Origin: Verrucomicrobiota bacterium | GTDB taxonomy: Bacteria > Verrucomicrobiota > Verrucomicrobiia > Chthoniobacterales > UBA6821 | Direction of reading: 5' to 3' | DNA length: 64,000 nt | Assembly: GCA_021413925.1 (NCBI GenBank) | Contig: JAIOPL010000013.1 | Coordinates: 1 to 64,000, forward strand | Position numbers and translations under genes: made by a program | Notes under the pieces: generated by a model | Databases searched by the model: none | Told to the model about the DNA's origin: nothing | Seen by the model: only the letters and a program-made list of their open reading frames with translations | Shown: positions 5,660-30,491 of the stretch, piece by piece | Layout: every line of letters begins with the position of its first letter | Position numbering within the stretch: the stretch's first letter is position 1

Positions 5660-5983
5660 ATGCTTCAGCCATCTTCCATGCCACTACCGGCTAGCCATGC
5701 CCTGCGAAAGCTGGGGCGGGACTTGTCGATTGCCCGAAGGAAGAGGGGTATCTCGACCGCAGACATGGCGTCCCGGCTTTTTGTCAGCAGGGATACCTTA
5801 TGGCGTCTTGAAAAGGGGGATCCCTCGGTGGGTATCGGCACCCTGGCAACCGCTGCCTTCATTCTCCAAATGCACGATCGCCTCGCAAATCTTGCCAACC
5901 CATCAACCGATGCCATTGCCCTCGACCTTGATGAGGGCCGACTTGCCAAACGTATCCACCGCATCCGACGCACTGCCGTATGA
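5660..5983 (+). CDS. hipB: HipB-like XRE-family antitoxin
   Basis: The 107-residue protein has an XRE helix-turn-helix at about residues 14-70 (LGRDLSIARRKRGISTADMA, FVSRDTLWRLEKGDPSVGIG). It overlaps the next gene by 4 bp (ATGA), the usual translational coupling of antitoxin and HipA toxin. It probably binds the inverted repeat just upstream and represses the pair. A second ATG at codon 7 is also possible as the start. Confidence 0.85.
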   Translation: MLQPSSMPLPASHALRKLGRDLSIARRKRGISTADMASRLFVSRDTLWRLEKGDPSVGIGTLATAAFILQMHDRLANLANPSTDAIALDLDEGRLAKRIHRIRRTAV

Positions 5984-7206
5984 CCATCGAGGTACACATT
6001 GATTGGAAAGGTAAGCCTCTTTTTGTCGGGAAGCTCCATACATCAGAGCGCACCCCAGCGACTTCTTTTGAATACTCCGCCGAGTGGCTGGCACGCTCGG
6101 ATGCTTTTCCCATTGATCCGACTTCACTCCCCCTCCGGGCCGGCCCCCATCATGCACCGATGCTTTTTGGCGCCTTTGCCGATTGTGGCCCCGACCGTTG
6201 GGGGCGGGTGCTTATCAAACGCTCCGCGAGCAAGGGACTTCTTGAGCGGATACCCCGACATGATCTGGACTATGCATTGGCGCTTGATGATGCCTCGCGG
6301 ATTGGAGCACTGCGCTTTCGTTCCGAGGGCGGGAGTCCTTTTTTGGGTGAGTCTTCTGGAAAATTGCCTCCAATCGTTCAGTTGACGGCTTTGCTCAATG
6401 CTGCCAATGCGGTGCATGGGGAGAGTGAAACAGCGGAGGATCTCAGATTCCTACTGGGAAGGGGTTCTCCTCTGGGAGGGGCCCGCCCGAAATCGGCCAT
6501 AACTCTTCGTGATGGCAGTCTGGCGATTGCAAAGTTCCCAAAGCCGGATGATACCCTCGATGTGGCAGCCGGAGAGGTATTGGCGTTGACCCTTGCCCGT
6601 AAGGCCGGAATGACCGTTGCAGAGCACCAACTTCTTTCGGTCGATGGCAAGAGCATCTCAGTGATCACTCGATTTGACCGTCAGGGTGAACATCGCATTC
6701 CCTTCCTTTCGGCCAACACGCTCCTTGCCCTTCCCCTGGATGATCCCGGCGCCTACACGCTGCTTGCCGACGGCATCCGTCAACATGGTGACAACGTCGA
6801 AAATGACCTGCGTGAGCTGTGGAGACGCCTAGTCTTCTCACTCCTCGCAAGCAACTACGACGACCATCTGCGCAATCACGGATTCCTGATGCTCAGGGCG
6901 GGACGTTGGGCACTCTCCCCCGCTTATGATCTCAATCCGGTCCCCGAGATCGATCGATCGCAAACTCCCAAGACTCCCATTTCCGAAGATCTGGGTGATC
7001 CAACAATTGCAGCCGCGCTTCGCTCAGCGCCCCGCTTTGCACTCAGTGCGAAGGATGCAAAGACCATCCTGAGGGAGGTGTTTGAAGCGGTTTCAACATG
7101 GCATGAAACTGGCAAGAGGCTTGGCATCAAAGCATCGACGCTCGCTGCCTATCAAACGGCTTTTGAGCATCCGATGGCTGAGGAAGCCAGGCGGATCATT
7201 GGGTGA
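5980..7206 (+). CDS. hipA: HipA-family serine/threonine kinase toxin
   Basis: The 408-residue protein matches HipA: an N-terminal subdomain (residues 1-110) and a kinase core. The catalytic loop is NYDDHLRNHG near residues 292-299, and the metal-binding segment SPAYDLNP has its Asp at 317. HipA kinases phosphorylate translation factors such as aminoacyl-tRNA synthetases and cause dormancy when not held by HipB. All key residues appear intact, so the module looks functional. It overlaps hipB by 4 bp. Confidence 0.88.
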   Translation: MTIEVHIDWKGKPLFVGKLHTSERTPATSFEYSAEWLARSDAFPIDPTSLPLRAGPHHAPMLFGAFADCGPDRWGRVLIKRSASKGLLERIPRHDLDYALALDDASRIGALRFRSEGGSPFLGESSGKLPPIVQLTALLNAANAVHGESETAEDLRFLLGRGSPLGGARPKSAITLRDGSLAIAKFPKPDDTLDVAAGEVLALTLARKAGMTVAEHQLLSVDGKSISVITRFDRQGEHRIPFLSANTLLALPLDDPGAYTLLADGIRQHGDNVENDLRELWRRLVFSLLASNYDDHLRNHGFLMLRAGRWALSPAYDLNPVPEIDRSQTPKTPISEDLGDPTIAAALRSAPRFALSAKDAKTILREVFEAVSTWHETGKRLGIKASTLAAYQTAFEHPMAEEARRIIG

Positions 7207-16535: not shown

Positions 16536-16997
16536 GTGAAAACTGCCTTCCTAGCCCTAAGCCGTCAACAAGTTGACGAGAAGCTCACCCCATGGAAGTC
16601 ACTCGTCAACCCGAAAGCCCCCCCGTGCGGTTGGATCAGGGCTATTCGCTCGAGTCTCGGAATGCGCGGTGTCGATTTCGCACAACGTCTTGGCATTGCT
16701 CCGGCAAGCGCTTCCGCCCTGGAGCAATCCGAAGCCGCCGGGACGATCTCCCTCAAGAGCCTTCGCAAAGCAGCGGAGGTTCTGGACTGTGACCTTGTCT
16801 ATGCCCTTGTTCCGAGAAAGGGCCTCACCTCGGCTATGGAACGACGCGCCGGGGCCAAGGCCGACGAGATGCTCGGCAACGTGAACCAGACCATGCGCTT
16901 GGAGGCCCAAGGCGTTGATTCACTTGCAGCTCGGAAGCAGTCGCGTGAAACCATCATTAAGTCCCTTCTTGAGAAGCCTTCATCCCTTTGGAAATGA
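16536..16997 (+). CDS. Mobile mystery protein A (HTH regulator)
   Basis: The 153-residue protein starts at GTG and fits the TIGR02612 family: an N-terminal helix with RQQVDEKLTPW, PPCGWIRAIRSSLGM, then an HTH (VDFAQRLGIAPASASALEQS, EAAGTISLKSLRKAAEVLDC) and a short tail. In this family it is always paired with a Fic-domain protein B, as here with a 4-bp overlap. It probably represses the operon through the palindromes upstream and may act as the antitoxin. Confidence 0.88.
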   Translation: MKTAFLALSRQQVDEKLTPWKSLVNPKAPPCGWIRAIRSSLGMRGVDFAQRLGIAPASASALEQSEAAGTISLKSLRKAAEVLDCDLVYALVPRKGLTSAMERRAGAKADEMLGNVNQTMRLEAQGVDSLAARKQSRETIIKSLLEKPSSLWK

Positions 16998-17581
16998 ACC
17001 AAGACGATCCCGAAGGAGCAACACCTCTGACGCCTACAGAGGAGGAAGGATTGATCCCGAGCCATATTACTCTGCGTAGCGAACTAAACGAGTTGGAGCA
17101 GGCCAACATCCTCGAAGCTGAAACATGGCTCCAGACTAGGGAGCGCCGGTCAAGCGCCCTGGATCCGCTGTTTCTCAAAGCACTCCACCGCCGCATGTTC
17201 GGCACCATATGGAAATGGGCTGGGCACTACCGTAAAGCAGATCGAAACATCGGAGTCCACTGGCCAATGATCAGCTCCCAACTCGAACTCCTCTGCCGAG
17301 AGGCAACGGCGTGGCGCGATGAAAAAGCCTTTACCCCCGACGAGTTGGCGATCCGCTTCCATCACAAACTCGTCTGGATTCATTGCTATCCGAACGGCAA
17401 TGGCCGCCATGCCCGTCTGGCAGCGGATCTCCTCGTCATGGAACTCGGAAGCACCCGCTTCTCCTGGGGAGGTGACTCCAACCTCGAATCACCCACTGAA
17501 ATCCGCAAACACTACATCGATTCCTTGAAATCCGCGGATCAGCACGATCACCGCGCCCTGCTCGCTTTTGCAAGGAGATGA
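16994..17581 (+). CDS. Mobile mystery protein B (Fic-domain protein)
   Basis: The 195-residue protein from ATG 16994 fits TIGR02613. The Fic motif is HCYPNGNGRHAR (His130 to about Arg141): the catalytic His and GNGR loop are kept, but the acidic residue of canonical HPFxDGNGR is Asn, as is usual in this family. Without that metal-binding acid the AMP-transfer activity may be altered. No intrinsic inhibitory helix motif is obvious, so the A protein may restrain it. A TTG at 16988 is an alternative start. Confidence 0.88.
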   Translation: MNQDDPEGATPLTPTEEEGLIPSHITLRSELNELEQANILEAETWLQTRERRSSALDPLFLKALHRRMFGTIWKWAGHYRKADRNIGVHWPMISSQLELLCREATAWRDEKAFTPDELAIRFHHKLVWIHCYPNGNGRHARLAADLLVMELGSTRFSWGGDSNLESPTEIRKHYIDSLKSADQHDHRALLAFARR

Positions 17582-17790: not shown

Positions 17791-19191
17791 TCAGATCACG
17801 TTAGTGTGGTTTGGGAAGGCTGCGACATGGCGTGCAGCCAGTTGCCTAAACTTCTCTGAAACCAATTCCGATTCGTGAAGCCTCGCCCAAAAGGCACGGG
17901 CCCATAGTGACTCAGGGCCTTGAGTTGCTGCTCCTATCAACCCTAGCAGGGCCTCAGAAATCCCGGGAACGCCTGATTGTTCCACGGGTCGATAAGCCAT
18001 AGGAAGCATGTCGTAAACCGGAGCCAGGGTAAGAGGCTTTGCCTGTGACAGCAGGAAGCTTGCATTCCCGTAATGCATGTCCGTGTTTCCTATTAACTGG
18101 CCAAACTTCCAGAGCGAAGAAAGCTTTTCGGCATCCACCTTGGCGAGCCAGCCCTCGCGATGCATTGCGTCACCAGCTACGGACCATGGTGCATTGATCT
18201 CATTAAGAAAAGCGGCTGCAAATGATCGAAGCGAAACCGCGGCAATTCGCCCACCCTCACGCGTGCGGTCGAATCGTGCCACTTCCAAAAAACGTCTATT
18301 CTCGGCATCGATCAGCTCCACCTGCGGCACATCCATCCCGTTTTCCCGCAGAATGTCAGCGGCGATTTTTTCCCCTGCCAGAAGATCCGCCCATCGACGC
18401 CCCTCCTCACGGTGCAGCTCCGGCGAAAACTTCACCAGCACCGAGCGGATGGATCCACCGGAGGAAAGGGTGGCTGTGAATTTCGGCTGTTCCCCGCCGG
18501 CGGACGATCCCGCGATATTTCCCTGAAGCGCCTCCTCAGCGCGCAGCGGGTAGACAACCGTACGCTCCTCATCCTTAACAGCTGGTCGTGAGGTCAGCGC
18601 CAGCGCTTCGGTCAAAGCATGATGCCCTATCACAAAAGCGCCCGGCAGATCGCTTCCATATCGGATCAGCGACTCAAGCACACCTACCTGTGACCAGAGC
18701 GCCGGATCGAGCCCTTGCCCCAATGGTGATGCATGCCTTCTGGCAAAGGCTCGCCCTAGAAATCCCTGCGGACGCACATCATCCAAAAACCATGGCAAGC
18801 CGGGAAACATTCCCTTGGGGAACTGCTCACCGACGAGCGTTGTCCAATGCTCTTCGGTGCTTCGCTCCAAATGAAAGCCTCCTCCCACAAGTGCTTGAAG
18901 AACGCCCGCCTGTTCGGGAGCCCCGCCACTGCCAATCACATAGAGAGGCCACCGTGATCCCAAATCCGCAACCTGGGCTTCCATTCCGTATCTCGTGGAG
19001 CTTCCCCTTCCGATTCGGACAACAGAGCCCCCCATTCTTGTCAAAGCCCGCGAAATCGTCGGCTGACTTACCCCGGCATCCTCTGCCAGCTCACGCGCCG
19101 TCATCGTCCCCTTCCGAAGAAATGCTAGCCGTATGAGTTGTTGAAGATTGCTCACTTTGAATGGATACGCCGATCTATTCATTCTATGCAA
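17791..19191 (-). CDS. yjjJ: HipA-family kinase with N-terminal HTH (YjjJ-like)
   Basis: The 466-residue protein joins an N-terminal winged HTH (about residues 15-70: LIRLAFLRKGTMTARELAED, AGVSQPTISRALTR) to a HipA kinase. The catalytic loop is GNTDMHYGNASFLL and the metal loop is LAPVYDMLPM. E. coli YjjJ has the same fusion, a HipA-like toxin without a separate HipB. The fused HTH may let it repress its own gene. All kinase motifs seem intact. No partner gene adjoins. Confidence 0.88.
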   Translation of the reverse strand: MHRMNRSAYPFKVSNLQQLIRLAFLRKGTMTARELAEDAGVSQPTISRALTRMGGSVVRIGRGSSTRYGMEAQVADLGSRWPLYVIGSGGAPEQAGVLQALVGGGFHLERSTEEHWTTLVGEQFPKGMFPGLPWFLDDVRPQGFLGRAFARRHASPLGQGLDPALWSQVGVLESLIRYGSDLPGAFVIGHHALTEALALTSRPAVKDEERTVVYPLRAEEALQGNIAGSSAGGEQPKFTATLSSGGSIRSVLVKFSPELHREEGRRWADLLAGEKIAADILRENGMDVPQVELIDAENRRFLEVARFDRTREGGRIAAVSLRSFAAAFLNEINAPWSVAGDAMHREGWLAKVDAEKLSSLWKFGQLIGNTDMHYGNASFLLSQAKPLTLAPVYDMLPMAYRPVEQSGVPGISEALLGLIGAATQGPESLWARAFWARLHESELVSEKFRQLAARHVAAFPNHTNVI

Positions 19192-19480: not shown

Positions 19481-20617
19481 ATGAACCTTTCGGACTTTAC
19501 CGCAGGCAGCTATGAGCAACGCCAGGAATACAAGGCCTTTCTCCCTGAGCCAGTGTGCCATGAATGGGTAATAGCTGATCCTGAACTCATGGATCTGCTC
19601 GGACGGGCGGATCGTGCCCTGGGAGAGCTGAACGCCTTTGCCCAGTTGATTCCAGACATCGACTTCTTCATCCGCATGCATGTGGCCAAGGAGGCAACAC
19701 AATCAAGCCGTATCGAGGGGACTCAGACCAACATCGAGGATGCCTTCAGGGATGAAGCAGATCTCAAACCCGAGGAGCGAGATGACTGGGCGGAGGTCCA
19801 GAACTATATTCGCGCGATCAATTTTGCGATCAGCTCGCTTGATCGGCTCCCGTTTTCTAACCGTCTGCTCTGTGAGACTCATGCAGTGCTGATGGACGGC
19901 GTAAGGGGGAAGCACAAGCAACCAGGTGAATTCCGAAAAAGTCAGAATTGGATCGGCGTAAGTCTGAGACATGCGTCCTTCGTGCCACCCAATCACGAGC
20001 ATGTTCCAGAGCTGATGAGTGATTTGGAGAAGCTGCTGCATGCGGAGGATCTCTTCGCCCATCCGCTGCTGCGTATCGCTATCGCCCATTACCAGTTCGA
20101 GACGATCCACCCGTTTCTGGACGGCAACGGTCGACTGGGTCGCCTGATGATCTCGCTCTACCTGGCCGCCCGCGGCTTGTTGATCAAACCCGCGCTCTAT
20201 CTCTCGGACTATTTTGAGCGTAACAAAACGGCCTATGTGGATCACCTCATGGCCGTGCGGGAGGGAAATCATCTTCGGTCGTGGCTGGTCTTCTTCCTCT
20301 ACGGAGTGGAGGAGACGGCGCGCTCATCAGCAGGCTTGTTCCGCTCGGTTCTCAGCCTCAAGCATCGCATTGACGCTGAGGTCATGCCGCGCTTCAGCAC
20401 TAGACGGCTGCCAACGGCGCAGGTGCTGATGAGTCAGCTCTACGCGCATCCGGTGATTGATGTGAAAAAGGCGGTTCAAGTCACGGGAGTTTCGAGCAAT
20501 ACCGTATCAGCTCTGATTTCCGACCTTGTTGAGGCAAAAATTCTCGAGGAGATAACCGGGCAACGCCGAAACCGAAGCTTTGTCTTCGATCCCTACCTGA
20601 CTCTTTTCAAATCATGA
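19481..20617 (+). CDS. Fic/DOC family protein with N-terminal inhibitory motif and C-terminal winged helix
   Basis: The 378-residue protein has a Fic_N domain with the autoinhibitory motif SSRIEG (Ser75 to Gly80) and the catalytic HPFLDGNGRLGR near residue 210. A C-terminal winged helix (VKKAVQVTGVSSNTVSALIS, DLVEAKILEEITGQRRNR) follows. Class II Fic enzymes AMPylate proteins, and their own helix blocks ATP. The winged helix probably binds the palindromes upstream. The gene is bracketed by 63-bp direct repeats. Confidence 0.92.
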   Translation: MNLSDFTAGSYEQRQEYKAFLPEPVCHEWVIADPELMDLLGRADRALGELNAFAQLIPDIDFFIRMHVAKEATQSSRIEGTQTNIEDAFRDEADLKPEERDDWAEVQNYIRAINFAISSLDRLPFSNRLLCETHAVLMDGVRGKHKQPGEFRKSQNWIGVSLRHASFVPPNHEHVPELMSDLEKLLHAEDLFAHPLLRIAIAHYQFETIHPFLDGNGRLGRLMISLYLAARGLLIKPALYLSDYFERNKTAYVDHLMAVREGNHLRSWLVFFLYGVEETARSSAGLFRSVLSLKHRIDAEVMPRFSTRRLPTAQVLMSQLYAHPVIDVKKAVQVTGVSSNTVSALISDLVEAKILEEITGQRRNRSFVFDPYLTLFKS

Positions 20618-20625
20618 CAGGCATA

Positions 20626-20688
20626 AGGCGACCAAGAAGCCAAGGCTGTTAGCTTTTTAGACTGTTGGACTATTAGGTCGGAGGGGAT
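20626..20688. repeat. Direct repeat right of the Fic gene, containing an octamer array
   Basis: Partner of 19244-19307; the octamer units are at 20645-20676. It begins 9 bp after the Fic stop codon. Confidence 0.85.
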
Positions 20689-20728
20689 CAAGTAACTTGG
20701 TGAGCTGGATGCTGTCGTTCTAAAGTCC

Positions 20729-20761
20729 CTTTACTTGTTGCACTTTACTTTTATTGTAAAG
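20729..20761. promoter_or_regulatory. Candidate VapB operator
   Basis: CTTTAC at 20743 has an inverted copy GTAAAG at 20756 across a 7-bp spacer, and an additional direct CTTTAC at 20729. The last half-site ends 2 bp before the vapB ATG, a typical place for autorepression by an AbrB-type antitoxin. Confidence 0.5.
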
Positions 20762-20763
20762 GC

Positions 20764-21018
20764 ATGACCACGACGATCAGTAGCAAGGGGCAGATCACCG
20801 TTCCGGTGGAGATTCGTGAGGCTTTGGGACTGGAACCGGGCACCCGCATCGACATCCGCTTGGGGCCCTCCGGCACCTTCCTCGCCACCAAGGCCAAGGA
20901 GACGAGTTTCTTTGCTAAATTCAAGGGCGTGGCAGGCAAACGAAAAGTCCCCTACGGCGATAGCATCGAGGCAATGGATCTCCTACGCGGCAACGTTCCC
21001 TCCGGGGATGTCGATTAG
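20764..21018 (+). CDS. vapB: VapB antitoxin (AbrB/SpoVT fold)
   Basis: The 84-residue protein begins with the swapped-hairpin AbrB motif (TTTISSKGQITVPVEIREAL, LEPGTRIDIR) and has a C-terminal toxin-binding tail. It is followed 8 bp later by a PIN-domain gene, so this is a VapBC pair. It probably represses the operon through the short inverted repeat just upstream. Confidence 0.9.
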   Translation: MTTTISSKGQITVPVEIREALGLEPGTRIDIRLGPSGTFLATKAKETSFFAKFKGVAGKRKVPYGDSIEAMDLLRGNVPSGDVD

Positions 21019-21026
21019 AGGGCACC

Positions 21027-21443
21027 ATGATCACCGCCATTGATTCCAACATCCTGATTGATGTGATCGGGAGTCCTTCTCGGTTCACCGATCCAGCTAT
21101 CCATGCGCTGGATGAGGCCCGCCAGCAGGGTGCCCTCATTATCTCCCCAATTGTTGTGGCTGAGATTGCCGGACATTTTTCCTCTGCATCCCAGCAGGAG
21201 AAGTGCCTGCGCGAGATGGGCCTGAGGCTCATCGACTTCAGTATGGAGGATTCATTCCACGCCGGGCAGGCCTACATCGCCTACAAATCCCGCAGCAAAG
21301 ATCCGAAGCCTCGAATGCTCGCTGACTTTCTAGTCGGAGCCCATGCCTCACTCCAGGCAGATCAACTGATGACCCGCGATAGAGGCTACTACCGCACCTA
21401 CTTTCCGAAGCTCAAGATTGTGGAGCCGACGAGGTCGGTTTAG
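21027..21443 (+). CDS. vapC: VapC toxin (PIN-domain ribonuclease)
   Basis: The 138-residue PIN domain has the acidic active-site residues expected: Asp in AIDSNILIDV near the start, Glu in VVAEIAG, and Asp residues in LADFLVGAHA and MTRDRGYY. VapC toxins cut tRNA or rRNA when freed from VapB. The module looks intact. Confidence 0.9.
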   Translation: MITAIDSNILIDVIGSPSRFTDPAIHALDEARQQGALIISPIVVAEIAGHFSSASQQEKCLREMGLRLIDFSMEDSFHAGQAYIAYKSRSKDPKPRMLADFLVGAHASLQADQLMTRDRGYYRTYFPKLKIVEPTRSV

Positions 21444-21478
21444 GCTGTTAGGGGAACCGGCTCTAGGGTTTTAGGTCA
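21441..21478. repeat. Degenerate octamer array of the ACTGTTAG family
   Basis: A decayed array (GCTGTTAG clear, others drifted) ends TTTTAGGTCAGAG like the other copies. It overlaps the vapC stop codon region. Confidence 0.5.
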
Positions 21479-21552
21479 GAGGGGATCGGGAAAAAGTAGA
21501 AAGCTTAGGGGGTAGGACACTCTGTGTCTTGAGATTGTGGTAAGTTGACCGC

Positions 21553-21828
21553 ATGAAACTCATCCATCACACCCTTCTTGCGATTCTAACCATCACTGCC
21601 GCCCAAGCATTCCCACTCGATGAGCCGGTAATCACAACCATCTACGAGCCGAACGGATTCACTGTGTACTACCCTGCCGGTAAGGCAAACGAGTGGAGTG
21701 CTGCTAGGACGAGTTACGGAAATACTGGTTTGGATCTCTTGGATAGGGTTGGGGAAAGCAGTCGCAATACTACGGACGCCTTGCTGAACGGGGGTTCGGT
21801 TATCGATGCGGCTTTTTTTGATCGGTAA
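21553..21828 (+). CDS. Small secreted hypothetical protein
   Basis: The 91-residue product has a typical signal peptide (MKLIHHTLLAILTITAAQAF) and a mature part without a recognised fold. It ends 10 bp before the start chosen for the deacetylase-like gene. It may be co-transcribed with that gene, but an untranslated remnant cannot be excluded. Confidence 0.4.
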   Translation: MKLIHHTLLAILTITAAQAFPLDEPVITTIYEPNGFTVYYPAGKANEWSAARTSYGNTGLDLLDRVGESSRNTTDALLNGGSVIDAAFFDR

Positions 21829-21838
21829 CAAGGTGGAG

Positions 21839-22762
21839 ATGAGACTAAGCAAACCACTGATGAAATCTCAGGATGCAAATACGCAGTCGGTCTCAAAAAT
21901 TCCAACCTGCTTTTCAGATACCTACTCAGCCGATACTCCGACAGCCAGCATGAGGAAGTTGGCGCCTGTCGCCCGTGCAGCTGAAGCTGCCGGTTACGTC
22001 ACACTGCGGGATCCGGGGTTAGTTGATCGGGACAAACTACGATCCCTCCATAATCCGGACTATGTCCGGGCGTTCATCACTGGCGAGGGACGACTTGCAA
22101 GTTCTCAGGGCTGGGACTGGACCCCACAGATCCGCAAAGGGGTTCTTGCTATCAATGCAGGGCAGATCGAGGCAGCAAACCTCGCCTTCAAGCACGGGAT
22201 CGCTGCCAATGTTGCCCAGGGTTTCCATCACGCCCAACCGGAACGTGGATCAGGTTTTTGCACTTTTAATGGTCTCGCACTCGTGGCTCAAGAATTCCCG
22301 GAGAAGAAGATCTTCGTGCTGGACTGCGACGAGCACTGCGGAGACGGAACGGCTGAATTCACCAAGAAACTCCCCAACCTCTTCAACTTCTCCATCAATG
22401 GCACTAACTGGGGGATGCACGAGAGTGATAGGAGCATTTGCCGGAACATCAAAACGACTCCCAATTCATTCAGGAATTACAAAAAAGCGCTCCTTGAGGG
22501 ATTCAACTGTGCTCGAGAGTGGAGTGCTGATCTGATCATCTATCAGGCTGGTGCAGATCCCCATGTCGATGACCCGATGAGTACCGGCATCCTTAACACA
22601 GAGCAAATGCTTGAACGGGACAGAATGGTCTTTGCTCATTTTCACAAGAGCGGTACACCCCTCTTTTTTGTCCTAGCCGGTGGCTATCAGACTCCCATTG
22701 AGGAGAAGCTACTTCCCTTGCACCTGAATACTTTCAGGGCTGCCTTTGAAGAGTACTTTTAG
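21839..22762 (+). CDS. Histone-deacetylase-family (arginase/deacetylase fold) protein
   Basis: The protein has about 307 residues. Conserved metal and catalytic motifs are GFHHAQPERGSGFCTFN (the HH pair), VLDCDEHCGDGTAEF (Asp-x-His of the zinc site) and QAGADPHVDDP (the second Asp), ending in LAGGY. Bacterial members deacetylate acetylated amines such as polyamines. The start at 21839 has AGGTGG just upstream; ATG 21806 and 21860 are alternatives. It is convergent with the Zorya operon. Confidence 0.85.
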   Translation: MRLSKPLMKSQDANTQSVSKIPTCFSDTYSADTPTASMRKLAPVARAAEAAGYVTLRDPGLVDRDKLRSLHNPDYVRAFITGEGRLASSQGWDWTPQIRKGVLAINAGQIEAANLAFKHGIAANVAQGFHHAQPERGSGFCTFNGLALVAQEFPEKKIFVLDCDEHCGDGTAEFTKKLPNLFNFSINGTNWGMHESDRSICRNIKTTPNSFRNYKKALLEGFNCAREWSADLIIYQAGADPHVDDPMSTGILNTEQMLERDRMVFAHFHKSGTPLFFVLAGGYQTPIEEKLLPLHLNTFRAAFEEYF

Positions 22763-22785
22763 AAGATAATATCTTACGCACCGCC

Positions 22786-23670
22786 CTAGATCTCTTTTGT
22801 GAAAACAAGCACCTTATATTTGTTGTAGTCAGGGGAGCTTCTCAGATGTGCATGCATTGGCTCCTTGCAGTGACAATCAATGCACAAAGAAATCAGATTA
22901 CTGCTAGAGATATCACTTCTATCGCCGTTCTTGTGATGGACATGAAGGTATTTTCTATGTTCTCCGACTAGCAACCTATTGCAGGAGAGATTCATACAAC
23001 GCCAACCTGCCCTCTCTTTTACCCCCTTACTGATCTGATCCCAGTTTACTGGATAGGTATTTAAAGGCGACGTCATTGCTGACTTTTTGGGGATGATCGT
23101 GAAGTTGTGTCTTTTAGGAAAGTTATCAAAGAAATGCTTGGGCTTGAATTCAGTAATATAGTCTTTTCGAGGTTGTCCTGTCAGGGTTCCGAAATCTGGA
23201 AAAGGCAATTCCTTCAAGCAGCAGATACAAACCCTTAGTGCAACTTTCTGATTATTTGGACGTTTGTCAGTGAAGACGTTCATTTCAAACACGCCAGTCA
23301 TTTCGGCCGCTACTTTGTACTTAGAATGAAATCTATTCATCGACTGCATACGCTGGAGGGTCGAGCAGTTATAAAAGTGGTACTTTGGGAAGCTATCCTC
23401 AATAGACTTATTTCTAAAAATATGTATGTCCCTGATATATAGAAGAACTCTTCTATCCTTTAAAGCCAGCGTCCCATCTTGAAGGAATGTAAGATCTCCC
23501 AAATCGACTTCAAGCCCTACCCCTGAATCGATTGCTTTAAGCTCCTCTAAGGTGAGACGTCCCTCAGTAGGGGTCTCAGGGTTGAAATTTCCAAAGCTAT
23601 TTTGTGAAATTCCCATCAATGACTTTAAACGATTCAGTTCTGAATCGATTTTGAAGTCTGGTAGTTTCAC
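22786..23670 (-). CDS. zorE: ZorE-like HNH endonuclease, third gene of a Zorya operon
   Basis: This 294-residue protein starts at a GTG overlapping the zorB stop (GTGA). The C-terminal third is an HNH nuclease: WRCMNLSC, LHVHHKNGDRSDISSSNLIS, LCIDCHCKEP, with paired Cys ligands, the His-His and the Asn. The first 190 residues are not recognised. Type II Zorya is defined by ZorA, ZorB and the HNH protein ZorE, and gene order and overlap match. The codon use looks AT-rich compared with the core genes. Role: DNA cleavage after phage sensing by ZorAB (known for the family). Confidence 0.82.
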   Translation of the reverse strand: MKLPDFKIDSELNRLKSLMGISQNSFGNFNPETPTEGRLTLEELKAIDSGVGLEVDLGDLTFLQDGTLALKDRRVLLYIRDIHIFRNKSIEDSFPKYHFYNCSTLQRMQSMNRFHSKYKVAAEMTGVFEMNVFTDKRPNNQKVALRVCICCLKELPFPDFGTLTGQPRKDYITEFKPKHFFDNFPKRHNFTIIPKKSAMTSPLNTYPVNWDQISKGVKERAGWRCMNLSCNRLLVGEHRKYLHVHHKNGDRSDISSSNLISLCIDCHCKEPMHAHLRSSPDYNKYKVLVFTKEI

Positions 23671-24470
23671 TTGCCTGAATAAGTTGCCATCTCACTGATG
23701 ATCTCATCAGCGTTAGCTTTGACCTTGAACTCAACCCGTTGCGAAAGGAGAGGGTTTTCTGTGCCATCGTCATTCTTTCTAATGTGTGAGGATGACAATC
23801 CGTTGGCTGTAAAGTGGCTGATCATCCACTCCTTTTTGGATTGGATATCGGGAAGAGTAAGTACGTAGGATAGGGTAGCTCTTGTTCTGGACTGGGACAG
23901 ATCCATGTTCTTTGAGTATGCATCATCCGGATTTAACGATCCGTTCCACTGAGAAGATGTATGCCCCTCTATTCGGATCTCTTCAATTGTTGTGCTATAT
24001 TGGGGTTTTGTAAGAATCCGGATATATCTCGGGAAAAAGTCATTAAGTATGTTTTTGAAGCTCTTTTTAAGAATGGATTGTCCTGTGTCGAACAAGACAT
24101 CTGGTTCTTCAAACCTTATAGATAGGCTTTTCTCATCGATGTTTGCTTTCCATTTTGGAAGGTCATTATGAAACTCTATAAACAAGTCGTTATATAGATC
24201 GCTCTTTGTATCTGCGTACTTTGTTGCCACGGCTACAATTGCAGGTAAGGGCGTTGGTGTTGCTGCGGGAGTAGCAGTGGGGGTCGGGGATGCCGTGGGA
24301 GTTGGAGTGGGCAGCGCCTTTTTCTTCTCCTGCTGAAGCTGCACCATGTAAAGGATGGCAATGAGCATGAACACCATCATCAGGCCCGTCATGAGATCGC
24401 TCAAAGGTATCCAATGGTCATCCTTTGGTGACCCGTCGACCTTCTTCCGAAATATCTTCTTGAGAGACAT
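23667..24470 (-). CDS. zorB: ZorB-like MotB/OmpA membrane stator subunit
   Basis: The 267-residue protein has one N-terminal membrane helix carrying the ion-pathway aspartate Asp25 (DHWIPLSDLMTGLMMVFMLI). A Pro/Thr-rich linker at about residues 52-78 follows, then an OmpA/MotB peptidoglycan-binding domain (EEIRIEGHTSS, DLSQSRTRATLSYVL). The Asp corresponds to the essential residue of characterised ZorB. The long PTPT linker looks unusual for a ZorB. It is separated from zorA by 6 bp. Confidence 0.87.
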   Translation of the reverse strand: MSLKKIFRKKVDGSPKDDHWIPLSDLMTGLMMVFMLIAILYMVQLQQEKKKALPTPTPTASPTPTATPAATPTPLPAIVAVATKYADTKSDLYNDLFIEFHNDLPKWKANIDEKSLSIRFEEPDVLFDTGQSILKKSFKNILNDFFPRYIRILTKPQYSTTIEEIRIEGHTSSQWNGSLNPDDAYSKNMDLSQSRTRATLSYVLTLPDIQSKKEWMISHFTANGLSSSHIRKNDDGTENPLLSQRVEFKVKANADEIISEMATYSGK

Positions 24471-24476
24471 TTACAA

Positions 24477-25919
24477 CTATCTAGGGGTTATATCTACAAG
24501 TTGGCGAAGACGTTCCGTGAGGGGAGTATAATCACGAACAAACTGCTGGGAGAGTGCCGTCAGTTGACTCCCGAGACTTGTGAGGGACTTGTTCAACTCC
24601 TCAGTGAGTGCCTTGTCCAAGAGGATGACATTCTCTCTGGCCTTATCGGCAAGCTCCGTGAATTGCTTTCCGCACTGATCATTTGCTTCGAGAAGACCAC
24701 GATTCAAGTCAGCTACGGACTCCCTCATCTTGTCAGAGTTAGATTTCATTGAAGTATTGAGATCTTCCTGATTTTCAGTCATGCCTTTGGCAATATCGGC
24801 AAGCGCTTTATTAAGATTCAACTGATTCGCTGCTATAGATTCAGAAAGGTGTTTAGACGACTCTTTGATAGAGGCTTGTACGACTTCCTGTCCCTTGCTT
24901 ATGGATTCTGAAATCACCTTGAGATTTGTAGTGATGGCACCAGAGAGCATGCTCTGATTTTCCTTAAATGAGCTAGAAAGCTGTTCGGTGATACCAAGGA
25001 TTTTCTTCTCAATCTCAGGCATGCTCCCCGAAGCACTGTTTAAAAGGTTTGCAAGAGCCGCAGAGACAGATTCGAGTTTTTTCTTTTCCTCTTCTAGGAA
25101 AACCATCATGTGACCCAGCCCAGTAGCAACATCAGAGAACTTGGTAGAATGTTCAACAACCTGTGAGTAGTCAGCCGTGGCCTTTGAGAGAAGATCCGCT
25201 GTTATTCCAAGCTTGCTGGTGGTCAGTTCTAGAGATTCCTTATACTGATTCTGCCATTCTAGGAGTTTACCTACTGCCTGATTGAGTTCCTTGAAATTCT
25301 CCCCAAATTGCTCAGTGATCTTCTGGTTGAAATCCTTGATGACATCTCTCAACGCCTCAACAAGAGTCTGGGAACTCATTTGAGAAAGCTTTTCCAGTGC
25401 TTTGAGTTGAGCATCCTTGAGTTGGTCAAGCTTGTCGTTTGAGTCCTGCCTGGAAAGCTTCATTTGGGAGAGAAGAGTCCCCTCATCGCTTCCAACCAAT
25501 CCCTTTTGAATTGCATGCAAGCTGGATAATAGATCAGCGGCCGTGACCTCATCCCCGTGGGTAATGTCTCCTTCTATTGTAGTATGCCCGAAACAATAAT
25601 CCCTGAGCTTGATTGTTAGTGCCGCACCCACCCCTGCCACAGATGCCCAGAAGGCCGTCTGGAGACTGCCCAGCAATTGATGAACGCTCTCTGAAATATG
25701 AGTATCATCCAGATTTAGATCAGTAAGTCCGATCGCTATACCTAAGAATGTAGCAAAGATTCCAGCCGTGGTCAGAATTGCAGGGGCTGAAGCAACAGCC
25801 TTTGCGTTAAATCGAACGTGAAAAAACACCGTCATCAAAGCAATAATAGCGATGAATGACTGCGTTAATCCGCTGAGGTTTAGGAATAAACCGAGGGGTC
25901 CGTGGGATTGGTCGTGCAT
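24477..25919 (-). CDS. zorA: ZorA-like MotA/TolQ/ExbB membrane motor subunit with long coiled-coil tail
   Basis: The 480-residue protein has three membrane segments in the first 140 residues (FIAIIALMTVFFHV; ILTTAGIFATFLGIAIGL; TAFWASVAGVGAALTI), matching the MotA/TolQ/ExbB core. About 320 residues of heptad-rich helix follow, consistent with the intracellular ZorA tail. With ZorB it would form an ion-driven rotary complex that senses phage at the envelope. The length fits type II better than the longer type I proteins. Confidence 0.87.
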   Translation of the reverse strand: MHDQSHGPLGLFLNLSGLTQSFIAIIALMTVFFHVRFNAKAVASAPAILTTAGIFATFLGIAIGLTDLNLDDTHISESVHQLLGSLQTAFWASVAGVGAALTIKLRDYCFGHTTIEGDITHGDEVTAADLLSSLHAIQKGLVGSDEGTLLSQMKLSRQDSNDKLDQLKDAQLKALEKLSQMSSQTLVEALRDVIKDFNQKITEQFGENFKELNQAVGKLLEWQNQYKESLELTTSKLGITADLLSKATADYSQVVEHSTKFSDVATGLGHMMVFLEEEKKKLESVSAALANLLNSASGSMPEIEKKILGITEQLSSSFKENQSMLSGAITTNLKVISESISKGQEVVQASIKESSKHLSESIAANQLNLNKALADIAKGMTENQEDLNTSMKSNSDKMRESVADLNRGLLEANDQCGKQFTELADKARENVILLDKALTEELNKSLTSLGSQLTALSQQFVRDYTPLTERLRQLVDITPR

Positions 25920-26444
25920 GATTGGATTGTCAAAAGGGGTTTGTAGAGTGGTACGCCTGCCGGGACCTATAAAGTCCTCGGTCTCGGCAAGCTGTGCGAT
26001 GGTGGCAGATTCTAATTGTGATACAATGGCATAATAGAAGAAGCCATAGCGTATTTTGTCCGATTAGTGGTGTCCGCTTTAGGGTTCAAAATGTTTGATA
26101 CTAGCATTCCAATAATCCAATCCACCGACCTTTATAGATTTCGTGCAGATTGAGAATGGGTGCCCCAGCCATGTCTGGTAGGATTTCTCACTGCGACAGA
26201 TTGGAGTAGGAGCAAACTTCAAAGCATGGAAGCACTCCTGAACTCTCAACAAGAAGTACCACTGTAAACAAACCCAAACCCAATTCATTCCGATATAACT
26301 ACGTGGGGGGGCGAGTGTGCAGTAGATGGGAGTCGTGAACCCCTAACCCTCTGAGCCGTAGTCAGGTGGTCTTCTAGGATTGGAAGATCGGATGGTGAGC
26401 AAGGCGGCCAAGGCGAACCAAGCCTCAGGGATGAGGTGCGGAGA

Positions 26445-26617
26445 ATTCCGCGTAGCGGAATCCGATAGGGCGGCACAGCTTTGCGGGAGCAAAGTGCCGT
26501 TCAAGCCGTAGTAGTCCTACGGCGACCGCGGGCGCTAACACAGCAAACCTACTACTGGCGGGAGTAGGTTGTAGTGCCGCAGGCAACCCCTTTAGGGGCG
26601 AGCGGCGTGGGCACGCC
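26445..26617. repeat. String of compact hairpins between Zorya and the PDH operon
   Basis: The gene-free stretch 25920-26652 contains consecutive perfect stem-loops, each with a different stem. ATTCCGC/GCGGAAT is at 26445; CGGCA plus CTTTGC/GCAAAG at 26471-26499; GCCGTAG/CTACGGC at 26505-26523; AACCTACT/AGTAGGTT at 26546-26570; CCCC/GGGG at 26587; GGCGTG/CACGCC at 26604-26617. No T-run follows any of them, so they are not ordinary terminators. The part 25920-26440 shows nothing recognisable. Confidence 0.8.
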
Positions 26618-26652
26618 CTAGTACAATCTCCGCTGATATCCCAAGCCTCCTG

Positions 26653-29110: not shown

Positions 29111-30397
29111 CTACTCACTGAAGAAGAAGCGGCCGGTCTGGCCGGCCTCGGTCTTGTGATCCACCTCGTGGTAGATGTCCTCGAAGATGCTCTCCTCCGA
29201 GGGCCAGGGGCTGGCGATCCCGAACTCTGCAGCAGCGGCGGCTTCGGCCTTGGCCTCGTCATCGATCTTCTCGATCTGGGCCTGGGTAACCGTCTTCTCC
29301 TTGAGCAGCTGATTTTGCCAGCGGGTGATCGGGTCGTAGTCAGTCTTGTAGAGCTCGATCTCCTCGGGTGCGCGGTACTTCTTGGCATTCGCATCGGCGA
29401 CAGAGTGGCCGTAGTAGCGGTAGGTGGAGACCTCGAGGACCATTGGCTTGGACTCTTTGCGGGCACGCTCCATGGCGGCTCCGAGATTGGCCCGTAGCTC
29501 GTAGAGGTCAAAGCCGCCACAGGTGGCCCACTCGACACAGAAGCCCTCGGCACGCTTGGCCAGTGAGCCGTTCACGGCCGAGGAACGCTCGAGGCTAGTC
29601 CCCATGGAATAGCCGTTGTTCTCGATGACATAGACGATCGGAAGATCCCAGAGAGCGGCCATGTTCAGGCACTCGCTGAAGACTCCCTGATTCACCGCCC
29701 CGTCACCTAGGAAGGCGACTGCGCAGCCGTTGATCTGCTTGTACTTGATTGCGAAGGCGAGGCCTAGGCCAAGCGGGGTCTGGCCGGCGACGATGCCATG
29801 ACCGCCCCAGTAATGCTTGTCGGGAGCAAAGAAGTGCATCGAGCCCCCCTTCCCCTTGGAGCAGCCGGTGCCTTTGCCAAAGAGTTCGGCCATGCATTCG
29901 TTCATTCCCATGCCGACAGCCAAGGCGTGGCCATGGTCGCGGTAGGCGGTGATGATTTCGTCGTGGCCGTTCATCAGGGAAGCGGTGCCAACCGCGACCG
30001 ACTCCTGGCCGTTGTACAAATGGAGGAAGCCACCCATGATCCCCTGATTATAGTATTTCAGCGCCTGCTGCTCGAAGCGGCGGATGCGGAGCATTTCGCG
30101 CAGGAAGCCGATCTTCTCGGCTGGCTTCAAAGAGGAGTTGAAGGGGGACTTGGAGAAATCGGAGGAAGTCACCTTGGGTGGGGCAGTAACAGCTTTGGTG
30201 GGCGCTTTGGCCGGGGCTTTTGCAGCAATCGGCTTGGTGGGGGATTTTTTACCAGTCTTGGCAGGGCCTTTAGTCTTCAGGGGCTTGAGGGACTTAGGAG
30301 ACGCCTTTTTTGCTACAACCTTGGGGGCTGCGAGACGGACCACCTTTTTCACGGCGGTCTTTTTGGATTTCGAAGGTAAGGAAAGCGTGCGTGCCAT
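29111..30397 (-). CDS. pdhA: Pyruvate dehydrogenase E1 alpha with histone-H1-like N-terminal tail
   Basis: From ATG 30397 the product has 428 residues. Residues 1 to about 80 are Lys/Ala/Pro-rich low complexity (KKTAVKKVVRLAAPKVVAKK, AKAPAKAPTKA). The thiamine-binding E1alpha fold then follows (FLREMLRIRRFEQ, GKGGSMH, FLGDGAVNQGVFSE with the GDG...N motif, RYYGHSVAD). Ordinary E1alpha proteins are about 330-370 residues and lack this tail. Another ATG at 30466 is in frame but adds non-basic residues. Confidence 0.93.
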   Translation of the reverse strand: MARTLSLPSKSKKTAVKKVVRLAAPKVVAKKASPKSLKPLKTKGPAKTGKKSPTKPIAAKAPAKAPTKAVTAPPKVTSSDFSKSPFNSSLKPAEKIGFLREMLRIRRFEQQALKYYNQGIMGGFLHLYNGQESVAVGTASLMNGHDEIITAYRDHGHALAVGMGMNECMAELFGKGTGCSKGKGGSMHFFAPDKHYWGGHGIVAGQTPLGLGLAFAIKYKQINGCAVAFLGDGAVNQGVFSECLNMAALWDLPIVYVIENNGYSMGTSLERSSAVNGSLAKRAEGFCVEWATCGGFDLYELRANLGAAMERARKESKPMVLEVSTYRYYGHSVADANAKKYRAPEEIELYKTDYDPITRWQNQLLKEKTVTQAQIEKIDDEAKAEAAAAAEFGIASPWPSEESIFEDIYHEVDHKTEAGQTGRFFFSE

Positions 30398-30491
30398 AGG
30401 CGTTTCCCATCCGGAGAAAACCGGTCGGGAAGAGTAAATTATTGAGAAATCAACCGTGTGCGGCAAGCCCGAAGAGATCGACGAATGAATC

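Follow-up and report, generated by a model that had tools for sequence, protein, structure and literature searches.

The question raised by this locus is whether three consecutive genes in a 64,000-nt stretch of Verrucomicrobiota DNA, here called the window, form a Zorya system, and if so how far they depart from the known types. According to the ORF list, zorA, zorB and zorE all lie on the minus strand and together span 22786–25919 (Table 1), with 6 nt between zorA and zorB and a 4-nt overlap (GTGA) of zorB and zorE. The arrangement of the three genes described in the initial annotation was recovered, as were a MotA-like ZorA with a coiled-coil tail, Asp25 of ZorB and an HNH motif, on the basis of profiles, alignments to 8vvi and conserved columns. 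We conclude that the locus is very probably a complete type II Zorya, a predicted anti-phage operon gained by horizontal transfer, in which a Pro/Thr-rich linker of ZorB replaces a coiled-coil stalk. With the exception of the ZorB neck its parts are ordinary for the type. Scans of the locus for promoters and terminators gave site counts no higher than chance.

Table 1. Features of the zorABE operon and of the slot that holds it, in window coordinates.
Feature	Position	Strand	Description	Evidence
zorA (ZorA2)	24477-25919	-	480 aa, ATG start	PADLOC ZorA2 2.6e-111; PDB 8vvi_F 5.1e-60
ZorA residues 320-419, extra tail stretch	24663-24962	-	11-residue periodicity	gap between two 8vvi-aligned stretches
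zorB (ZorB2)	23667-24470	-	267 aa, ATG start	PADLOC ZorB2 4.2e-88; PDB 8vvi_A 1.1e-53
ZorB Asp25 codon	24396-24398	-	ion-channel carboxylate	aligns with S. kujiense D21 and E. coli D24
ZorB residues 51-80, Pro/Thr-rich neck	24231-24320	-	membrane helix to peptidoglycan-binding domain	unaligned insert vs 8vvi; in frame
zorE	22786-23670	-	HNH nickase effector by homology; 294 aa, GTG start	PADLOC ZorE2 3.5e-74, residues 1-285
ZorE residues 1-20	23611-23670	-	motif MKLPxFxxxxxLNxLRxxMG	L3, M19 at least 90% conserved
ZorE N-domain, residues about 41-200 (DUF8245 of preprint)	23071-23550	-	putative Zn site H98, C102, C148, C151	
ZorE HNH nuclease domain	22852-22998	-	C225, C230, H245, H246, N258, C263, H267, H273	conserved columns
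Cargo slot, vapBC to pyruvate dehydrogenase E2	21453-26637	.	holds HDAC-like gene and zorABE	

The type was evaluated by profile search, and the type II assignment proposed initially was borne out for all three genes by PADLOC. ZorA scored 370 bits against the ZorA2 model as compared to 39 bits against ZorA1 and 16 bits against ZorA3. NCBIfam returned the same three protein names, all below strict cut-offs (140 of 700, 219 of 400 and 120 of 600 bits) in models that are fitted to the E. coli-like branch. The nearest solved structure by sequence is the type II complex of Sulfuricurvum kujiense, 8VVI. Each hallmark of type II was found, namely adjacent zorA, zorB and zorE without zorC or zorD, a MotA/TolQ-like ZorA channel core with a long cytoplasmic helical tail, a ZorB with the channel Asp and an OmpA-type peptidoglycan-binding domain, and a ZorE with an HNH nuclease and the putative N-domain zinc site. 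The operon is flanked by an HDAC-like gene and a pyruvate dehydrogenase E2 gene; neither matches the zorC and zorD genes of type I, both of which are absent, and neither is of the zorF or zorG kind that would go with type III, for which the ZorA3 score is also just 16 bits.

A flagellar MotAB or ExbBD/TolQR-type stator that happens to lie beside an unrelated HNH gene would have its fold class (MotA/MotB, OmpA domain) in common with the window proteins. This reading is vanishingly improbable, however, as Pfam MotA_ExbB detects seven other genes of the same genome and misses ZorA, while both ZorA and ZorB score far better on Zorya models and 8VVI. Furthermore, the third gene matched the ZorE profile, most relatives have zorE linked to zorAB, and the order zorA-zorB-zorE is maintained in most of those collected with ZorA. 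The stator reading was rejected on the profile scores and this linkage.

Likeness to the S. kujiense complex extends over the ZorA core and tail end, the ZorB membrane helix with D21/D25 and the peptidoglycan-binding domain (PMC11890865), the alignment of ZorA to 8vvi_F covering residues 23–319 and 420–477. The window ZorA tail is roughly 100 residues longer. The extra stretch is missing from S. kujiense ZorA and shorter in the congener locus L052; self-match peaks of the tail were observed at lags of 11, 18, 22, 29, 36 and 40 residues, and the stretch gave a weak apolipoprotein-repeat match. Tail lengths across the family ranged from 145 to 334 residues between two landmarks, and neither 7 nor 11 emerged as a clean step family-wide.

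Initially, no known match could be named for roughly the first 190 residues of the HNH protein. In fact, PADLOC ZorE2 models align over residues 1–285 and a novel N-terminal domain was accordingly rejected; the region is the ordinary N-domain of the family. This domain is named DUF8245 in a 2026 preprint (PMC13192584), and DUF8245 was not among the matches of a Pfam scan. The residues H98, C102, C148 and C151 are found in all 73 aligned ZorE, a conservation consistent with the zinc site predicted in PMC13192584. An AF2 model of ZorE had a mean pLDDT of 91.4. As a PDB fold search with ZorE gave weak matches throughout, mostly to HNH proteins and none for the N-domain, that domain is without a detectable solved relative.

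The window operon resembles E. coli type II Zorya in its three genes, their order, the ZorE N-domain with its Zn site and the HNH residues (PMC11890865, PMC13192584), the latter including positions mutated in E. coli ZorE. Standalone defence by E. coli ZorE requires H90, Y189, H226, K231, N238, L239, H247 and H253 (PMC13192584). These correspond to H98, Y206, H246, R251, N258, L259, H267 and H273 in the window, K231 to R251 being a conservative change. Residues E99, N234 and H235 of the E. coli protein are needed only for Bas37 synergy with Druantia III (PMC13192584), and these columns hold R107, I254 and S255 in window ZorE. The Druantia-III-linked C-terminal nuclease-like extension is absent as well: 27 residues follow H267 as opposed to 120 after the equivalent H247 in E. 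coli and 103–133 in extended ZorE. Given that the standalone residues are kept, the synergy residues changed and the extension missing, window ZorE is expected to function standalone, without Druantia III.

ZorE grouped with Spartobacteria L052 (support 100/99) and L050 (97/96), followed by Microvirga and Nitrosomonas, and in both the ZorE and ZorB trees the window proteins fell inside type II with proteobacterial neighbours. The nearest ZorE/ZorB outgroup is formed by type II Zorya of Microvirga, Methylococcaceae and Nitrosomonas (L051, L054, L055 and L071). The operons of two congeners (L052/L039 in genome G393, L050/L040 in G334) share genus and gene order with the window, and their ZorE are 55% and 39% identical to window ZorE; their ZorA of 411 and 525 aa differ in length from the 480 aa in the window. 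No ZorE match was found in the phage records searched. These trees speak against the suggestion that the operon might be a distinct Zorya subtype. Window ZorE is less than 45% identical to any ZorE outside the genus, and the neck of window ZorB is unlike all others compared, as a separate subtype would have it. The genes and their order are nevertheless those of type II, ZorE and ZorB are nested within it, and PADLOC type II models fit over near-full length, making a distinct subtype exceedingly unlikely.

ZorE opens with a 20-residue motif in which L3 and M19 are the positions kept in at least 90% of sequences (Table 1). The same motif opens nuclease-less third proteins of other zorAB operons, which suggests that it is a candidate docking peptide for ZorAB.

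Several zorAB operons without a full ZorE were encountered among the relatives. Six loci, mostly in marine Burkholderiales (L072, L074, L082, L083, L104 and L090), carry type II zorAB and no zorE; the short ORF that follows zorAB encodes only the first ~20 residues of ZorE (MKxxxFxxxxxLNxLRxxMxA). Upstream of them are found a kinase (6 of 6), a PP2C (5 of 6) and a TerY-like vWA gene (4 of 6), identified by PADLOC at L074 as TerY (9.9e-128), PP2C (1.1e-47) and STK_OB (1.1e-124), so that these loci resemble a Zorya motor to which a TerY-phosphorylation triad has been added. Their ZorB together with that of L105 make up one clade (98/90). Nuclease-less third proteins opening with the ZorE N-terminal motif were also observed in L078 and L087, downstream of zorB, and at L105:2301-2654; a membrane segment was predicted by eye after the motif in L078 and L087. 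At the zorE position, L088, L091, L098 and L107 have a ZorE reduced to the N-domain, without HNH, and L116 a protein whose C-terminal part differs from ZorE, a frameshift being possible in each. Type II Zorya is the main cargo of a 7461-bp mobilizable Psychrobacter plasmid (NZ_MN657036.1, L035), where its genes are annotated merely as hypothetical, OmpA and HNH proteins.

The origin of the operon was evaluated from its composition and distribution. As noted initially, it is AT-richer than its neighbours, with a GC content of 44.3% compared to 57.7% for the remainder of the window, and all of the lowest-GC segments of 3134 nt lie over it. Only 3 of the 16 genomes of the genus have zorE, the window genome included, and in the phylum sample a match across most of ZorE was found in only 3 of 388 genomes. 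Both congener operons sit among other genes, at genomic sites unlike that of the window. A further congener, G398 (L190), aligns to window positions 20644–21452 and again from 26638, and holds in the same slot a single unrelated gene of ~1 kb with 41% GC. Low GC, patchy presence in the genus, differing sites and the unrelated G398 cargo all indicate that zorABE was horizontally acquired into a cargo hotspot, in keeping with the transfer suspected initially. Direct repeats sought on either side of the operon proved to be short, and no long one was detected.

This setting also bears on whether the locus could be a Zorya-derived motor that was co-opted for a cell function, in the envelope or in signalling, and lost its role in defence. 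Some type II ZorAB relatives without a nuclease do occupy syntenic places and co-option therefore probably happened elsewhere. The window zorE is intact, however, with the standalone-defence residues all conserved or conservatively changed, and the operon occurs patchily, has a high AT content and lies in a cargo hotspot; co-option is thus highly unlikely here.

The surroundings of the operon showed further features. The stretch to its left is variable and rich in toxin-antitoxin and defence genes: two HipA-domain genes (5980–7206 and 17791–19191), a Fic gene (19481–20617), a Fic-like/PDC-S04 match (16988–17581) and an AbrB/VapC-like pair (20764–21443). A histone-deacetylase-family gene (21806–22762, plus strand) without a PADLOC match shares the slot and is convergent with zorE, 23 nt separating the ORF ends. 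Intergenic dispersed repeats at 26376–26628, of which this genome and those of congeners contain many copies, adjoin the Zorya insertion edge. The pyruvate dehydrogenase E1 alpha gene (29111–30466, minus strand) encodes a Lys/Ala/Pro-rich, histone-H1-like N-terminal extension of ~90 residues that congeners retain, although its sequence varies (L174, L175, L177, L182).

ZorB is a MotB-like protein with a single transmembrane helix followed by a periplasmic OmpA-type peptidoglycan-binding domain, to which Pfam OmpA gave 26.1 bits, slightly below its cut-off of 27.2. Asp is found at the Asp25 column in all 87 aligned ZorB. In E. coli ZorB, D24, H141 and S143 are all required for defence, H141 and S143 both for peptidoglycan binding as well, and R215 for peptidoglycan binding (PMC11890865). 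H141 and S143 align with H170 and S172 of the window protein, while the R215 column holds Q244, being Q in 48 and R in 39 of the 87 sequences, followed by an invariant R245.

The neck that connects the membrane helix to the peptidoglycan-binding domain sets the window protein apart. Relative to 8VVI, which has none at the same point, window ZorB contains a 30-residue insert, and its neck is 47% Pro+Thr. Among 101 ZorB such a neck was unique to the window. It is known from one assembled genome. The homologues comprised the 80 best loci from a scan with ZorA, together with viral, plasmid and order-level matches; further Pro/Thr necks may occur beyond this sample. In a non-redundant set of 79 ZorB (pairwise identity <80%), the D25–W107 distance was a multiple of seven in 56 (49, 56, 63, 70, 77, 84, 91, 98 or 105) and a multiple of seven plus three or four in 21 (52, 53 or 102). 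The remaining two were a divergent viral ZorB, at 50, and window ZorB, at 82. As the sequences are related these counts are not independent of each other; at least 22 changes in neck length were required on a ZorB tree made without the neck columns. Long necks elsewhere are charged and helical-looking, including those of the two congeners (102 and 105), and the outgroup necks all look helical and are in register (56, 77 and 84). On account of the length changes in sevens and the charged, helical-looking long necks, ZorB necks elsewhere are read as parallel coiled coils in which the register has to be maintained.

In the AF2 model of window ZorB the helix stops at residue 52 and resumes at 75, with low-pLDDT coil at 53–74. 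The Pro/Thr linker thus interrupts both the neck helix of the model and the heptad register. As a linker of ~30 residues replaces the coiled-coil stalk, the cell-wall anchor is likely tethered rather than rigid. By our estimate an extended 30-residue linker spans about 90 angstroms and a 50-residue helix about 75 angstroms. What is conserved in the neck may therefore be how far it can reach towards the cell wall. Necks of at least 77 are present in each of the six Verrucomicrobiota type II ZorB recovered, which fall into two separate clades; the link between phylum and long necks is based on these two clades. Outside the phylum, among the ZorB compared, necks of that length occur in two Microvirga only.

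Assembly, ion flow, activation and nicking are modelled on the E. coli, Shewanella and Sulfuricurvum systems (PMC11890865, PMC13192584). Five ZorA and two ZorB would assemble in the inner membrane into a rotary motor powered by ion flow, with the OmpA-type domain of ZorB gripping peptidoglycan. Entry of a phage would set the motor free or switch it on, movement of the ZorA tail would recruit or activate ZorE, and ZorE would nick phage DNA, and host DNA too if unchecked. The window variant would combine this standard type II motor and nickase with a cell-wall anchor on a tether.

A broader proposal, which we put forward tentatively and consider doubtful, is that type II ZorB necks are parallel, heptad-stepped coiled coils whose length is set by the host envelope, given that the longest necks are those of the two Verrucomicrobiota lineages recovered. 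The window operon would then show a Zorya motor at work on an unstructured Pro/Thr tether, which would mean that phage sensing does not require the motor to be rigidly coupled to the cell wall. The range of type II Zorya now includes freshwater Spartobacteria, where it is tied to a cargo hotspot. Through the short N-terminal motif that ZorE has in common with nuclease-less third genes, the effector may contact the motor. The heptad-stepped ZorB neck, together with the natural variant in which it is broken, provides a direct handle on whether the motor needs a rigid anchor in order to sense phage.
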